Shown here piece after piece: positions 5,231 to 53,531 of a stretch of 64,000 nt of DNA. The stretch covers positions 310,001 to 374,000 of the forward strand of contig NZ_JANHAV010000002.1 of the NCBI RefSeq assembly GCF_024464655.1, in the 5' to 3' direction. Origin of the DNA: Halobellus inordinatus. Lineage in GTDB: Archaea > Halobacteriota > Halobacteria > Halobacteriales > Haloferacaceae. Each line of letters opens with the position of its first letter. The first letter of the stretch is position 1. The notes below the pieces were generated by a model. It saw only the letters and a list, made by a program, of their open reading frames with translations, was not told where the DNA came from and searched no databases. Position numbers and translations under genes: made by a program.

Positions 5231-5998
5231 TTACGCGGCGGTGTACGTCACGTCGACTCGCGCCGTGACAGTGACCGATCCGGCGTCGAACTGTGTCGGC
5301 GCGCCACCTGCGTCGGACGCGGTCTCACGGACTGCGTAGACGGGGCCGTAGTCACCGCCGGTCGACGCGGACTGGACGCCCGTCACGGTGAGATTGGCTG
5401 CGGCGGCAACCGCGTCGGCGTCGGTCCGAGCGGCGTTCATCGCCCGTTCGAGTGCCCGCTCGCGGAGCTCGGCGCGTGTCTCCGCACTGAGCGTGAACTG
5501 CACGCCGTAGACCTCGCTGGCGCCGTTGCCGATGGCGGTATCGACGACAGTCCCGGCGGCGTCGGGTGTCGTTTCGATCCGGTACGCGTGGACAGCCTCA
5601 TAGCCGGCGACGTCTCGCTCACTGGTCTTGCGGTCGACGTCCGCGTAGTAGGGCTGGAGTCGGTAGGACGCGGTCGTCACCGACTCGTCGTCGACCCCGG
5701 CGTCACGGAGCGCGTCGCGCATCTGCGTCGCGTTCTCGGCGACTGCGCTACGGGCCGCCTCGGCCGTGTCGGCGCGAGCGGTGACCGCGACTGTCACCAC
5801 TGCTCGATCGGCGTCTGCCGACACCTCGCCGGTGCCGGTCGTCGAGATCGTTCGTGTCACGTCTCCGGCCGCTGTGCCGTCGGCTGCGCCTCCGGTCGGT
5901 GCCGCGTCGGTCGTCGTGGACTGGAGCGGTCCGCTACATCCGGCGAGGAGGACGAGCGCTGCAACGAGGACTGCTGTAAACCCGATTCGACGGTTCAT
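5231..5998 (-). CDS. SIMPL-domain (DUF541) lipoprotein, 255 aa
   Basis: Exported lipoprotein with a SIMPL/DUF541 domain. The N-terminus MNRRIGFTAVLVAALVLLAGC is a signal peptide with lipobox LAGC, followed by a Thr/Ala/Gly-rich linker; the SIMPL domain runs from about residue 50 (ISTTGTGEVSADADRAVVTV) to the end. Family members are periplasmic or surface proteins of unknown biochemical role, some linked to oxidative stress. The ATG at 5998 is preferred to a GTG two codons upstream because it gives the compact signal peptide. An AT-rich CAATAG about 27 bases upstream suggests a leaderless transcript. Confidence 0.9.
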   Translation of the reverse strand: MNRRIGFTAVLVAALVLLAGCSGPLQSTTTDAAPTGGAADGTAAGDVTRTISTTGTGEVSADADRAVVTVAVTARADTAEAARSAVAENATQMRDALRDAGVDDESVTTASYRLQPYYADVDRKTSERDVAGYEAVHAYRIETTPDAAGTVVDTAIGNGASEVYGVQFTLSAETRAELRERALERAMNAARTDADAVAAAANLTVTGVQSASTGGDYGPVYAVRETASDAGGAPTQFDAGSVTVTARVDVTYTAA

Positions 5999-32360: not shown

Positions 32361-32438
32361 TAGGGATTATCGCAACTGTTCAGAGATTCTCGTCGTACCG
32401 TCCGGCGAGACATCTATGCAGACTTACGATACTCCCTA
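32361..32438. mobile_element. C-family mini-element, copy C2
   Basis: 78 bp, ends TAGGGATTATCGCAA and TTACGATACTCCCTA; inner stem TCTCGTCG/CGGCGAGA with one G-T type mismatch. Flanked by TCA at 32358-32360 and 32439-32441. The right TCA is the stop codon (TGA) of uvrA on the minus strand, so the element starts immediately after the uvrA coding sequence. Confidence 0.88.
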
Positions 32439-35462: not shown

Positions 35463-35540
35463 TAGGGATTCTCGTAACTATTCGGAGATTCTCGCCGTAC
35501 CGTCCGGCGAGAAATCTATGACGACTTACGATAATCCCTA
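35463..35540. mobile_element. C-family mini-element, copy C3
   Basis: 78 bp, ends TAGGGATTCTCGTAA and TTACGATAATCCCTA (one mismatch), inner stem TCTCGCCG/CGGCGAGA. Flanked by TCA at 35460-35462 and 35541-35543. Unlike C2 and C4 it does not touch a stop codon; it lies in the uvrA upstream region, 73 bases from the uvrA start. Confidence 0.87.
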
Positions 35541-36146: not shown

Positions 36147-36248
36147 TAGGGGCTATCGCACCTGTTCGGAGAGTCTCGCCGTACCGTCCGGCGAGAAATC
36201 TATGACGACTTACGATAATCCCTATATGGAGACGTACGATACTCCCGA
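36147..36248. mobile_element. C-family mini-element, copy C4, with duplicated right end
   Basis: The typical 78-bp element spans 36147-36224; a second, diverged 24-bp copy of its right end follows at 36225-36248 (19 of 24 bases identical). TCA flanks the whole: 36144-36146 and 36249-36251, the latter being the TGA stop codon of the PUA-protein gene on the minus strand. Confidence 0.83.
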
Positions 36249-38385: not shown

Positions 38386-38796
38386 TTACCGGTCGCCGAA
38401 TCGGATCCCGTCTTCGACGAGCCGATAGTTGCGCTCGCGGTCGATGTGGGTCGCGAGCCACTCGTGTTCGTAGAGCTGTGCGATCAGTTCCGCATAGAGG
38501 TTCCGCCACGCGATCGCGTAGATCGGGGACTGCCCCCACGCGCGGAGTTCGGGGATGAACTCGTCGTAGGTCTCCATTCGGTCTTCGAGGTGCTCGATCG
38601 CGTCGACAGCGTAACTCGCGGCTTCCGACTCCGAGTCGGCGGACTCGATGGCCTCGTCGAGACTTCGCTGTAGTCCGCCCACCGCCTCTTTCATATCGGC
38701 GGCGGCGTTCGCGCCATCCTCCGGGAGCGATTCGAGAATCTGCTGTGGGACGCCGAGCGAGAGTTCGCGGTCGGTCTCCGACGCGTCGTCTGTCAT
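38386..38796 (-). CDS. Conserved hypothetical helical protein, 136 aa
   Basis: Not recognised. Predicted all-helical and acidic: an N-terminal flexible part, then helices around residues 30-75 (DMKEAVGGLQRSLDEAIESADSESEAASYAVDAIEHLEDRM) and 90-125 with several Trp/Tyr. No cysteines or membrane segments. It is 88 bases upstream of the SAMP1-like gene on the same strand and may head that operon. ATG 38796. Confidence 0.72.
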   Translation of the reverse strand: MTDDASETDRELSLGVPQQILESLPEDGANAAADMKEAVGGLQRSLDEAIESADSESEAASYAVDAIEHLEDRMETYDEFIPELRAWGQSPIYAIAWRNLYAELIAQLYEHEWLATHIDRERNYRLVEDGIRFGDR

Positions 38797-38831: not shown

Positions 38832-38861
38832 CGTCGCGGGATCGGTTGTTCGGAGTCGATC
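38832..38861 (+). repeat. 30-bp direct repeat, left copy
   Basis: Matches 40640-40669 at 29 of 30 bases (one A/G difference). The two copies frame a 1.8-kb segment of four small genes. Neither copy overlaps a tRNA or a recognised gene. Confidence 0.75.
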
Positions 38862-38970
38862 TTTCGGGGGCGTTATGCAGGGTCTCTCGACCTCCTATGC
38901 GGGTCTTACCGCGGATACTGGATCCTAACGAAGTATGCAGCCCTCATTGTGAGGATACGGCCGCTCGACA

Positions 38971-39234
38971 ATGCTCTCTCGACCTTTCGAATTCGCGACA
39001 CACGACCGTTTCCGGCGGTTCATCGCGTGGTATACGGCCATCCTCGGTGGCTTCTCTACGCTGCTTGTAGGTACGGTCGTCCTCATCGCATACGTGTTTG
39101 AGGGCAACCTCACCATCTACATCGACAAATTTGGCGAAGCGGGACTCGAAGTCGCGCTCTTTGCGGTCGTCTGTGGAACCGTCCCGTTCGGTCTCTACGT
39201 GCTCGACGACATTCTCCGCGCCGACGACGAGTGA
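38971..39234 (+). CDS. Small two-helix membrane protein, 87 aa
   Basis: Two predicted membrane helices (FIAWYTAILGGFSTLLVGTVVLIAYVF near residues 17-43; VALFAVVCGTVPFGLYVL near 61-78) joined by a short loop; acidic C-terminus ADDE. No family recognised. It is divergent from the operon before it and convergent with the regulator gene that follows. ATG 38971 is the first start. Confidence 0.68.
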   Translation: MLSRPFEFATHDRFRRFIAWYTAILGGFSTLLVGTVVLIAYVFEGNLTIYIDKFGEAGLEVALFAVVCGTVPFGLYVLDDILRADDE

Positions 39235-39277
39235 GCGACGCGACGTTTCGCTATCCGCACGACTCGCCGGTCGTCTC

Positions 39278-39628
39278 TTACTCTGCAGCGTCGTCCGCAC
39301 CTGTCTCAGCGTCGCCTGGGTCCGTCCCAGCACCGTCGCCGGCCACGCTCGCCCCGACGAGCGCCTCGAAGTCGGTGTCGGGGTCGTGCCGCGCGTCGCG
39401 GTGCTCCAGCGCGGCCTCGCCCACCTCGGTGATCTCGTAGAGCCCGCTGTTCTCGGCCGGTCCGACGCGCCGCACGCAACCGTAGTCCGCGAGCGTGCCC
39501 AGGCGTGTGTTCATATACCCGCGGTCACGTTCCAGCGCGACCGCGACGTTGACGGCGTTGTTCCGGCCCTTCTCGGCCAGATACCCCAGAATCTCGAAAT
39601 CCGTCGGTTCCACCAGTTCCAGTCCCAT
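39278..39628 (-). CDS. PhiH1 repressor-like winged-helix regulator, 116 aa
   Basis: Residues 1-80 form a winged helix: LVEPTDFEILGYLAEKGRNNAVNVAVALERDRGYMNTRLGTLADYGCVRRVGPAENSGLYEITEVG, the pattern of haloarchaeal regulators related to the repressor of phage PhiH. A disordered acidic tail follows (about 85-116). The tail contains DAETGADDAAE. ATG 39628 begins the domain. Its paralog lies 190 bases away on the same strand; DNA targets are unknown. Confidence 0.82.
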   Translation of the reverse strand: MGLELVEPTDFEILGYLAEKGRNNAVNVAVALERDRGYMNTRLGTLADYGCVRRVGPAENSGLYEITEVGEAALEHRDARHDPDTDFEALVGASVAGDGAGTDPGDAETGADDAAE

Positions 39629-39816
39629 TTGTGTACGACCTGCCGGCGTCGCCACCGGCACCGATACAGTTCGTATCTACTGCCAGTATATAGTGTTTCT
39701 CCCTTCGTGAGTCGGTGCTCGGGTGGCCGTCAGACGAACGCCGTGCGACGATTCGAGACGCGAGAACGCCACTATAGAAGACAGTGGAGATCCGTTCGGC
39801 TCTCGACCGGCAGGCG

Positions 39817-40155
39817 CTACGCGCCGACTGTGTCGTCGGCGCCACCGACATCGCCCGATCCCTCGGTCCGGGATTTCAGTTCCTCGGCGACGAGTTCGTC
39901 GAAGTCGACGCCCTCCGTACGATACTGATCACGCTGTTCGACGACGACACGTCCCTTCTCGGTGATCTCGTAGAGCCCGCTGTTCGGTGCCGGCCCGACG
40001 CGCTCGACGAGATCGTAGTCCGCGAGCACGGGGAGTCGCGTGTTGATGTACGATCTGTTCTTGTCCAGAATATGCGAGAGGTTCACAGCCGTGTTCCGAC
40101 GCCCGTCGGAGAGCGCCTCCAGGATGTCGAAGTCGGTGGGGACTGCGAGTTTCAT
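39817..40155 (-). CDS. PhiH1 repressor-like winged-helix regulator, 112 aa
   Basis: Paralog of the regulator at 39278: AVPTDFDILEALSDGRRNTAVNLSHILDKNRSYINTRLPVLADYDLVERVGPAPNSGLYEITEKG aligns along the whole winged helix, including the NSGLYEIT wing. The acidic tail differs. ATG 40155. The 188 bases between the two genes contain a TATATA-like stretch near 39686-39692, so the two are probably transcribed separately. Likely DNA-binding transcription factor. Confidence 0.84.
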   Translation of the reverse strand: MKLAVPTDFDILEALSDGRRNTAVNLSHILDKNRSYINTRLPVLADYDLVERVGPAPNSGLYEITEKGRVVVEQRDQYRTEGVDFDELVAEELKSRTEGSGDVGGADDTVGA

Positions 40156-40264
40156 ACCCCGGACTTCACGCCCAAGAACAAATAATCAACTATGTGGCAG
40201 CGGTACAACAGCGGTGTTTGCGGAGAAAAATGCAGTAACACGATCCTACTGAGAGTATCGACCC

Positions 40265-40531
40265 CTATCGTTCGTCGAGAAGCTCACGCGCGAACCGCAG
40301 ATCTTCGATGATCCGTTCGTGTCTGGCGATGGCTCGTTCGACGTACTGTTCCGTTGATTCCGTCTTGGCCCCCTTCGATTCGTCGTAGTACGCTTGCAGC
40401 AGATGCGATTCGAGCGCCCGCGACGTCGCTTCGTTCGCTGTGAGAAGCGACCGGACGATCGTCCAATCGACAGCCCGCTCGTCCGGGAGCTCCTCGAGGG
40501 GGTGACCAACTCCCTCTTGTTGCTTTGACAT
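40265..40531 (-). CDS. Hypothetical helical protein, 88 aa
   Basis: Not recognised. Predicted mostly alpha-helical: SLLTANEATSRALESHLLQAYYDESKGAK (about 29-57) and TEQYVERAIARHERIIEDLRFARELLDER (about 60-88) would form a helical hairpin. Acidic, no cysteines. ATG 40531 is chosen over a GTG one codon upstream. Upstream sequence is A/T-rich (TTATACTGATGC near 40537) and could hold its promoter. It lies within the segment framed by the 30-bp direct repeat. Confidence 0.65.
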   Translation of the reverse strand: MSKQQEGVGHPLEELPDERAVDWTIVRSLLTANEATSRALESHLLQAYYDESKGAKTESTEQYVERAIARHERIIEDLRFARELLDER

Positions 40532-40639
40532 CACATTATACTGATGCTAACTGATACTTAAACTTTGCACTTCACTGATAGTTCATCCGCAACTTCGCTA
40601 TCGTCGCGTTTGCCAGTCGTTACTCGCTCGGTCACGTCT

Positions 40640-40669
40640 CGTCGCGGGATCGGTTGTTCGGGGTCGATC
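40640..40669 (+). repeat. 30-bp direct repeat, right copy
   Basis: Second copy of the repeat at 38832-38861, same orientation, 29 of 30 bases identical. It lies in the gap before the archaeosine synthase gene. Confidence 0.75.
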
Positions 40670-40726: not shown

Positions 40727-42541
40727 TCACACTTCTTCGACGTGCCGCACTTGCACCGCCTCGCCGCGCGTCGACTCCACCATCTCGCTGCCGAACATCT
40801 GCGCGCGGCCGACGGCGAACGCCTTCGGTCCCTCGACGACGACCTCGTCGCCGACGCGGATGTCCTCGTCGGCGTCGACGACGCCCGGCGCGAGGACGCT
40901 GCCGTGCGGGACGAAGCCGTCGATCTCGACGCGCTTCGTCGGGGCGTCGGACTCGTCCCAGACGCGCGCGCCGGCGAGCGTGAACGACAGGACGCCGTAC
41001 TGCGGCACCATCGTCGCGAGCTGTTGGTCGCCGCCGCCGTCGCCGTCGGTGTCGCCGTCGCGGACCTGCAGTTTGGGATACCGACTCGTCGTCTGCATCT
41101 CCACGTCCGCGAAGAGTTCGTCGCCCGCTCCGGGCCCGAACTGGTAGTCCGCGAGCGCCTTGATCGTGTTGTGCTGGCGCTCGCGCTTGCTGTACTTCAG
41201 TTCGCCGCCCAGTGTCGACATCAGATTCCCGATCGACTCCGTCGTCGTCGGGTGTTCGTCGACGGTGTACTCGAATGGGACGTCCACGTCGGCCGCGACA
41301 CGCTCGCAGATGTCGCGGTAGCCCTCGTCGGGCACGTGCGCGATCACGCGCGGGTACTCGTTCCGTTCGAGGTAGCGCCGGAGCACGTCCGCGACGAAGG
41401 ACTTCTCGTCTTCGGACCACCGGCCTGTCACGACCGAATCGTAGTGCTGGGCGGGGTAGGTGAGCTCTAACTCCATCGGGACGACGCCGATCGGCGACGT
41501 CATCGAGACCATATGGCCGCGATATTGGACTGCGTCGTGGAACTGCGCGTGGCTCTGCGACTCGCTGTAGGGCTTCGTCGCCGAGCACGGAACGAGAACA
41601 AGCGGGTTCGAAAAGCGGTTTCGGTACCGGCTCGTCACCCGGTCGGCGAAGCGCTGGATCTCGACGCGGCGGAGCGTATCCTCGGTGGCGGCGGCGAGTT
41701 CGCTGTCGCGGACGACCGGCGTCCGCTCCTCGACGTAGCCGTACTGCTGGTCGAACTCGCGGAACGCGGCCGTGAGCCACTGGTCGTGACGCGCCTGTCC
41801 TTCGATGTAGTCGCGAAGCCGACCGTCGCGGATCCGCCGGCGGACCGTCGCGAGCTGGGATTCGAGCGCGTACTCGTTGTGGTCGGCGCAGTCCTCGCGG
41901 TCGAACACCGCGGGGTTGTCCGGCTCGGATTCGGGGTCGATATCGACGCGCTTGCCCCGACAGGCCGGACACGAGCACGGCAGTTCGTCGAGGTCTTCGA
42001 GGAAGTACTCGCCCTCGGCGGTGAGATAGAAGCCCTGGAGGCCGCGGACTCGCGCCCGCTTCGCGTCCAGTAGGTCGACGCCGGCGTAGACGAGCGTGGC
42101 CGCGTTTCGGGGCGTCGCGACGCCGGAGAGATACAGCGCCGTGTCGGCCGGCAACGCCTCGCGCGCGGCGATGATCTCCTCGCGGAACGCCGAGGCGTGG
42201 CCGACGAAACCCTGCGCGTCCGAGAGGATGTACGCGTCGGCGCCGTAGTCGCCGGCCGTCTCCGCGGTCACGACTGCCGCGCTCGGGTAGTCGACGTCGG
42301 GGTAGTCGACGGCGAACGTCTCCTGTACGCGCTCGTCGGTGCCGGCCGGGAACGCCCGGTGCGGGAGGACCGTCAGGATCTCCCGGTAGCCTTTGGGCAC
42401 CTCGCGCTCGCTCGTCCAGAGGCTCCCGGCGTCGTCGACGCTGCCGTCGACGAGCGCGGGCGTCCGAAGCGGGTCCGAGAGGCGGAGTTCGCCCAGGCGA
42501 GCGGCCCCGTCTCGCCTGTGAACCTCGAAGTAATCGGTCAT
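40727..42541 (-). CDS. arcS: Archaeosine synthase subunit alpha (ArcS, TgtA2-type), 604 aa
   Basis: Converts preQ0 at position 15 of tRNA into the archaeosine precursor by adding lysine. An N-terminal TGT-like domain (about 1-270) retains CSCPAC near 194-199 but is catalytically divergent; the ArcS core carries VPCSATKPYSESQSH near 316-330; a C-terminal PUA domain (about 525-604) has VVVEGPKAFAVGRAQM and binds the acceptor arm. The radical-SAM partner RaSEA is not in the window. TgtA, the enzyme acting just before, is encoded 750 bases away on the same strand. Start ATG 42541. Confidence 0.94.
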   Translation of the reverse strand: MTDYFEVHRRDGAARLGELRLSDPLRTPALVDGSVDDAGSLWTSEREVPKGYREILTVLPHRAFPAGTDERVQETFAVDYPDVDYPSAAVVTAETAGDYGADAYILSDAQGFVGHASAFREEIIAAREALPADTALYLSGVATPRNAATLVYAGVDLLDAKRARVRGLQGFYLTAEGEYFLEDLDELPCSCPACRGKRVDIDPESEPDNPAVFDREDCADHNEYALESQLATVRRRIRDGRLRDYIEGQARHDQWLTAAFREFDQQYGYVEERTPVVRDSELAAATEDTLRRVEIQRFADRVTSRYRNRFSNPLVLVPCSATKPYSESQSHAQFHDAVQYRGHMVSMTSPIGVVPMELELTYPAQHYDSVVTGRWSEDEKSFVADVLRRYLERNEYPRVIAHVPDEGYRDICERVAADVDVPFEYTVDEHPTTTESIGNLMSTLGGELKYSKRERQHNTIKALADYQFGPGAGDELFADVEMQTTSRYPKLQVRDGDTDGDGGGDQQLATMVPQYGVLSFTLAGARVWDESDAPTKRVEIDGFVPHGSVLAPGVVDADEDIRVGDEVVVEGPKAFAVGRAQMFGSEMVESTRGEAVQVRHVEEV

Positions 42542-53303: not shown

Positions 53304-53337
53304 ATGCGGGAGAAGTGGCCCGGCGCAGATATCGAAC
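53304..53337. repeat. Partial copy of the tRNA-Pro 3' end and its flank
   Basis: 34 bases matching 53447-53479 with one substitution and one inserted base. The copied portion covers the last 21 bases of the tRNA gene and 12 bases downstream. The 109 bases between the copies contain no gene. Confidence 0.8.
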
Positions 53338-53458
53338 ACGGGAAGACGGTCGCTCACTGTGTTCGCGCTGCGACTTCCCTGCTCGAATCTGCTTGACGAC
53401 TTCCGCCCGCGTTTCAGACTGCTCGCTTCGCTCGCAGTAGTGTGAAATGCGGGAGAAG

Positions 53459-53531
53459 TGGGCCGGCGCAGATTCGAACTGCGGTTACGGCCACCCGAAG
53501 GCCGAAGGATACCAAGCTACCCCACCGGCCC
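53459..53531 (-). tRNA. tRNA-Pro (anticodon CGG), 73 nt without CCA
   Basis: Acceptor stem GGGCCGG/CCGGCCC with discriminator A. The D arm is GGGGTAGCTTGGTATCCT. The anticodon stem CGGCC/GGCCG is perfect, with loop TTCGGGT (U33, anticodon CGG). Variable loop TAAC; T arm CGCAG-TTCGAAT-CTGCG. No intron. It decodes CCG, a frequent codon at this G+C. CCA is not encoded. Confidence 0.95.

Follow-up and report, generated by a model that had tools for sequence, protein, structure and literature searches.

In the 64,000-nucleotide stretch of Halobellus inordinatus DNA analysed here (the window), four small genes, mem, reg1, reg2 and hel, occupy the interval from g38386 to arcS, which we take to encode archaeosine synthase, and are flanked by a 30-bp direct repeat. 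We propose that these genes probably form the regulatory edge of a surface-glycoprotein island and that the repeat arose by a duplication private to this genome and does not mark the ends of a mobile element. The island core would have been lost or relocated from between mem and reg1, or replaced by a homologous imported island, and the hel-reg2-reg1 trio would regulate surface genes that were once adjacent and are now possibly controlled in trans. Feature positions are collected in Table 1.

Table 1. Segment genes, anchors and repeat copies, in window coordinates.
Feature	Position	Strand	Description
g38386, left anchor	38386..38796	-	136 aa, no named family; brackets the variable site with arcS
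repeat copy 1	38832..38861	+	30 bp, divergent g38386/mem intergenic region
mem	38971..39234	+	87 aa, predicted membrane protein by reading
mem/reg1 junction	39235..39277		point where G015 holds ~11.3 kb
reg1	39278..39661	-	winged-HTH-like regulator; homologues begin ~39628
reg2	39817..40155	-	winged-HTH-like regulator; smallest dN/dS among segment genes
hel	40265..40534	-	89 aa, predicted helical (sequence reading); leads hel-reg2-reg1 run
repeat copy 2	40640..40669	+	30 bp, hel-arcS intergenic region
arcS, right anchor	40727..42541	-	Pfam TGT, DUF5591, TGT_C2, PUA

The repeat was first noticed as a direct match of 29 in 30 bases, and this description is accurate. The two copies differ by one base, A or G at repeat position 23, and their edges are sharp, the displayed flanks showing no match. 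A scan of the window with up to three mismatches returned these two sites and no others (mean of 0 over 100 dinucleotide shuffles). Across the whole genome (3,408,193 bases), a 28-base version at the same tolerance gave two forward and no reverse matches, and a reversed-pattern control gave 0. The many further copies named in the initial annotation as evidence against a framed segment are absent, and a dispersed repeat family was rejected for the 30-mer on its two copies genome-wide. First-order Markov simulation of the window (20 runs) produced direct pairs whose greatest length, with at most one mismatch, was 18-24 bp; since simulated windows reach 24 bp at most, the 30-bp repeat stands above chance. 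It is one of six direct pairs of at least 24 bp that the window scan found within 10 kb, the other five being three from a hairpin repeat family (one of 53 bp), one due to reg1/reg2 paralogy and one at the 3' end of a tRNA-Pro gene. Among 95 partly overlapping loci of other genomes, which amount to 563,792 bases and 412,140 distinct 31-mers, the 30-bp repeat was not found, the best match having 10 mismatches; the set covers this locus in 11 congeners as well as 29 hel loci. The exact 24-base core had no match in genome_contigs or viral_contigs, from which records of this genome were possibly omitted. With relatives sampled at one genome per species, the repeat appears, as far as it was searched, to be private to this genome.

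Other repeats are present in the window. A 31-base hairpin motif occurs at 1221-1251, 32388-32418, 35490-35520 and 36174-36204, and also at about 13650-13740 of L122, a locus on contig C11 of the same genome. At up to three mismatches, this genome has 87-88 copies of it, the close relative G015 has 15 and G006 has one; 14 other congeners have none. The L122 copy looks like the core of an ~85-bp MITE/REP-like element with ends ATAGGGATT...AATCCCTAT, and two of the window copies frame a gene that is presumably sepF-like. Separately, a 27-bp direct repeat (53304-53330 and 53447-53473) overlaps the 3' end of the tRNA-Pro gene (53458-53531, reverse strand), a pattern that integration into a tRNA gene can leave.

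Between the two copies of the 30-bp repeat, the small genes proved to be as the initial annotation had listed them. For the two regulators, which it labelled 'PhiH1-type', a PHROGs 'transcriptional regulator' family matches reg2 (1.1e-11) and reg1 (1.6e-7); the Pfam winged-HTH matches (HTH_24, HTH_45, HVO_A0261_N) are weak and below cut-off. Both may be winged-helix regulators of the PhiH1-repressor-like or HVO_A0261 type. PADLOC returned weak matches of reg1 and reg2 to its CasR, Csa3, CARF3--CARF_TM and LmuC models (E 0.0005-0.0035), which we read as shared winged-helix similarity. At E 0.01, no solved structure was found for the regulator family and no PHROG family for mem or hel. All four genes are intact, with dN/dS values against G015 of ~0.24 (hel), 0.12 (reg2), 0.29 (reg1) and 0.23 (mem), next to 0.11 for arcS. 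They have thus been under selection over the divergence from G015, which is consistent with continued function. The mem gene occupies the identical edge position in G015, has a homologue near hel and reg2 in G173, and is represented on contig C11 by an old, truncated paralogue.

The gene content between g38386 and arcS differs among the 11 congeners, so that variable content at a fixed site, as expected of an island, is observed here. In 10 of the 11, a CN-hydrolase gene (PF00795, the Pfam name coming from one of them) adjoins g38386, and G002 and G006 carry mem in addition. The best CN-hydrolase match in the genome under study is just 35% identical and lies elsewhere. Two arrangements include the regulators: in G005 the order is CN-hydrolase, CPD, giant surface protein, RHH, reg1, reg2, hel, arcS, and in G015 it is g38386, mem, S8-protease surface protein, CPD, surface protein, RHH, reg1, reg2, hel, arcS. 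The G015 genes between mem and reg1 make up the ~11.3 kb insert, which holds the S8-protease surface protein, a CPD/PGF-pre-PGF protein, the giant surface glycoprotein and a small RHH-type gene. Compared with G015, this piece is missing here from inside the segment and not at the repeats. It had been suggested that relatives without the segment would hold a single copy of the repeat. This was not what the congeners displayed: none of the 11 loci is an empty site with one copy (no repeat within 9 mismatches), and the nine that have no hel or reg genes carry the CN-hydrolase between g38386 and arcS. A much longer interval is seen in G008, where ~34 kb separate g38386 from arcS (L043 + L044, G008:C1, about 1099413-1134090; the two ends were read); going by G008, the site also accepts larger insertions.

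More distant relatives place hel and reg2 at the same site. A hel profile matched 33 of 392 evenly sampled genomes of the order, including the genome under study but not G015, which is outside that set; the matches span 11 of 95 genera, and reg2 lies near hel in all 32 of the other hel genomes. Gene identities in L036, L039, L120 and L121 rest on tblastn. In G255 the order arcS-hel-reg2-reg1-g38386 is that of the window minus mem, with no copy of the repeat. In genus g45, which belongs to another family (f12), hel and arcS are neighbours in G164, G086 and G182 and stand three ORFs apart in G094. The segment had been expected to be missing from distant relatives. That expectation fails for reg2-hel, which occupies the site, repeat-free, in G022 of another genus (g38386-reg2-hel-(5.3 kb)-arcS) and in 10 of the 13 loci of genus g29. 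All 13 g29 loci contain arcS, and in these 10 reg2 and hel lie between it and g38386; in the remaining three g38386 is not within the stretch examined. By gene order, reg2-hel holds the g38386/arcS position in three genera (g1, g7 and g29). The simplest reading would be that reg2-hel occupied the site before the repeat existed, and we infer that it was there before these genera split; alternatively, the sharing could reflect repeated insertion at a hotspot. Because reg2-hel stands at this site elsewhere with no repeat, and because the piece missing relative to G015 lay between mem and reg1, the repeat does not seem, in the loci compared, to have delivered the segment. The earlier view of the segment as what remains after integration or recombination stands in so far as the site is variable and looks like a rearrangement remnant; the repeat as its frame or means of delivery finds no support in the relatives compared.

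The same observations bear on the possibility that the repeat pair represents the attL/attR-like ends of a small element, mem-reg1-reg2-hel, whose integrase has been lost or lies elsewhere. The copies are long, sharp-edged and placed at the outer edges of the segment, nine of 11 congener loci are without hel and reg genes, and regulators resembling reg2 (about 50-60% identical) occur on 23 plasmid records. However, other genera hold reg2-hel at the equivalent site without the repeats, so that element and repeats do not co-occur, and the nine regulator-free congener loci contain a CN-hydrolase instead of an empty site. No integrase family was detected among the segment proteins by Pfam, NCBIfam, PADLOC or PHROGs, in agreement with the initial annotation, which had seen none. 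The single tRNA found in the window is ~13 kb away, the 24-base core has no exact match in the viral or genome contigs, and viral_contigs contain no confirmed relative of the regulators. We therefore regard att sites as very unlikely. A viral origin was also considered and rejected, the regulator alignment having no confirmed relative in viral_contigs and mem a single 18-residue partial match there. Four phage-record matches were found for reg2, 38-42% identical over 55-63% of the protein.

It is also conceivable, though improbable, that the 30-mer is an operator common to the g38386/mem and hel promoters and bound by reg1 or reg2. Relatives share a conserved stretch ~23-35 bp ahead of the g38386 start, and copy 1 is placed just upstream of it; copy 2 is situated upstream of hel, and the segment encodes two proteins of DNA-binding type. 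At most offsets, repeat words of 12-18 bases have a slight edge over letter-shuffled words in matching 29 hel upstream regions. This advantage is small (at most 0.65 mismatches), and words of at least 14 bases differ from every one of the 29 regions by 3 mismatches or more. Copy 2 is moreover ~70 bp beyond the TATA-like box of hel (by reading), and the genome has two copies and no more.

Both att sites and an operator are less likely origins of the repeat than ectopic copying, and for the repeat no evidence of an integrase, an att site or an operator was found. We consider that the repeat was probably made after the split from G015, most likely through ectopic copying of a short stretch from one of the two intergenic regions to the other (by microhomology or template switching) while neighbouring genes were being lost. 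No steps of its formation are visible in the relatives compared. Of 13 relatives, 7 have the five bases that open copy 1 (in GTCGCCGTCG) at the equivalent place in their flanks. The hel-arcS gap, which contains copy 2, is 88 bp longer than in G015, which suggests that copy 1 is the older; copy 1 lies where the CN-hydrolase was lost, which suggests that copy 2 is. Since gap length and CN-hydrolase loss point in opposite ways, the direction of copying is ambiguous.

The assignment of the segment to a surface-glycoprotein island is based on the company that hel keeps. Outside g29, hel/reg2, often with reg1, frequently adjoins an RHH-type gene, a giant surface glycoprotein gene and a gene for a CPD/PGF-pre-PGF protein. 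In 13 of 21 genomes, these 13 coming from six genera, hel has an S-layer-type signal (TIGR04207) no more than 3 kb away, where 0.11 would be expected at random; at 10 kb the count is 14 genomes from seven genera (expected 0.36). Congeners among them are not independent. These 21 genomes are our own, G015 and 19 others outside g29, the 13 g29 genomes being left out. Together they gave 51 matches over the cut-off, five below it having been dropped before the count, and in G098 the nearest signal was measured to the second hel match, not the best. Eight of the 21 have no signal within 3 kb of hel, and seven have none within 10 kb: our own, G022, G066, G074, G089, G173 and G195. In G066 and G089, secreted-looking ORFs of 930-931 aa without the signal lie beside reg2 or hel, G173 has a 1548-aa ORF beside mem, and in G195 hel is close to a contig end. 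Four g29 loci have hel-reg2 at arcS and no ORF of at least 900 aa save one antisense to a 667-aa ORF; at two g29 loci, secreted-looking ORFs of 667 and 707 aa lie beyond arcS on its far side. Given the g29 loci and the genomes without a signal, giant surface genes do not accompany hel-reg2-reg1 in all genera. At the locus studied here, no large secreted surface protein gene stands beside the segment. We speak of the edge of an island, not of an island, since such genes are absent here, occur near hel in most of the genomes counted, and have a related set on contig C11.

This related block on C11 (L122) comprises a reg2-like ORF with no Pfam match, an RHH gene whose product is 89% identical to that of G015, a gene for a 1623-aa surface glycoprotein, a CPD gene and the truncated mem. 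Together with the absence here of the core that G015 carries, it leads us to view the segment as a regulatory edge that stayed behind when an island core was lost or relocated. The block sits between two genes that we take to be peroxiredoxin-like and tatA-like. The two are immediate neighbours, 19-82 bp apart, in 9 of 11 congeners, and in G004 the distance is ~1.7 kb; G010 is without most of the peroxiredoxin-like gene. None of the 11 congeners has a C11-type block at this site, and the gap between the two genes measures 25 bp in G015 as against ~7.7 kb in the genome under study. The two border zones compared share no word of 10-30 bases that would form a direct repeat. An ORF that we presume to be TnpB-like is located just past the tatA-like gene (L122 14635-15924, G000:C11). 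Two stretches of ~80-100 bp, at about 5592-5692 and 13526-13605 of L122, match many places in other congeners (~80-90% identity) and represent further dispersed short repeat families of the genus.

Alternatively, the C11 block may have nothing to do with the arcS-locus loss, having been imported as a homologous island while the core was lost independently; the repeat would still be a private scar. We hold this to be a tentative second choice, less probable than our preferred reading. On C11, the mem copy is an old paralogue (dS 1.3-1.9) and the surface protein resembles its G015 counterpart only in part (29% over 344 residues), as import would allow. On the other hand, the C11 RHH and CPD genes diverge from the G015 arcS-locus copies about as much as arcS does (dS 0.25 and 0.46; arcS 0.37), and all 11 congeners lack the block there. 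Judged on these sequences, the C11 data fit both a relocated core and an imported homologous island. A more specific proposal, which we think unlikely, is that hel-reg2-reg1 is a dedicated switch for S-layer-like surface proteins that spans families, that in this species its targets have moved to a different chromosomal site, and that the intact switch, remaining at arcS and subject to purifying selection, now acts on them in trans, the repeat being a scar of the move.

The repeat itself is of minor importance, and the recurrent block beside it is more useful. This block, which several genera carry at or near arcS, combines hel and reg2, in many cases also reg1, with genes for an RHH-type protein, a giant surface glycoprotein and a CPD/PGF-pre-PGF protein, and it offers a testable handle on the ways in which haloarchaea may control variable surface proteins. 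In the genome under study, the regulators and the surface genes are at separate loci, which constitutes a natural test of control in cis versus in trans. No title or abstract opening found in the literature names a hel-reg2 island, and we make no claim that it is unpublished. Like the PhiH1-repressor-like and HVO_A0261-type regulators, reg1 and reg2 are short proteins with weak HTH_24, HTH_45 and HVO_A0261_N matches; unlike them, they are linked to a cellular surface-gene island, and their phage-record matches are weak.

As for the repeat, microhomology-mediated end joining in Haloferax volcanii, in which short junction homologies lead to deletions and rearrangements (PMC7776575), presents a possible haloarchaeal pathway for rearrangement at short homologies. 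The passages of PMC7776575 consulted describe no 30-bp copied insertion of the kind that we propose. The closest parallel to the island is GI1 of Haloquadratum walsbyi, a cell-wall-associated genomic island that, according to the part of PMC4535781 consulted, is variable and chromosomal and carries surface glycoprotein genes. The island considered here is likewise a variable chromosomal one with surface glycoprotein genes. In contrast to GI1 as presented in that part of the source, it has a regulatory edge (hel-reg2, often reg1) that recurs in different genera and families and does so repeatedly at arcS or close to it; in the genome under study this edge and the related surface genes occupy two loci.
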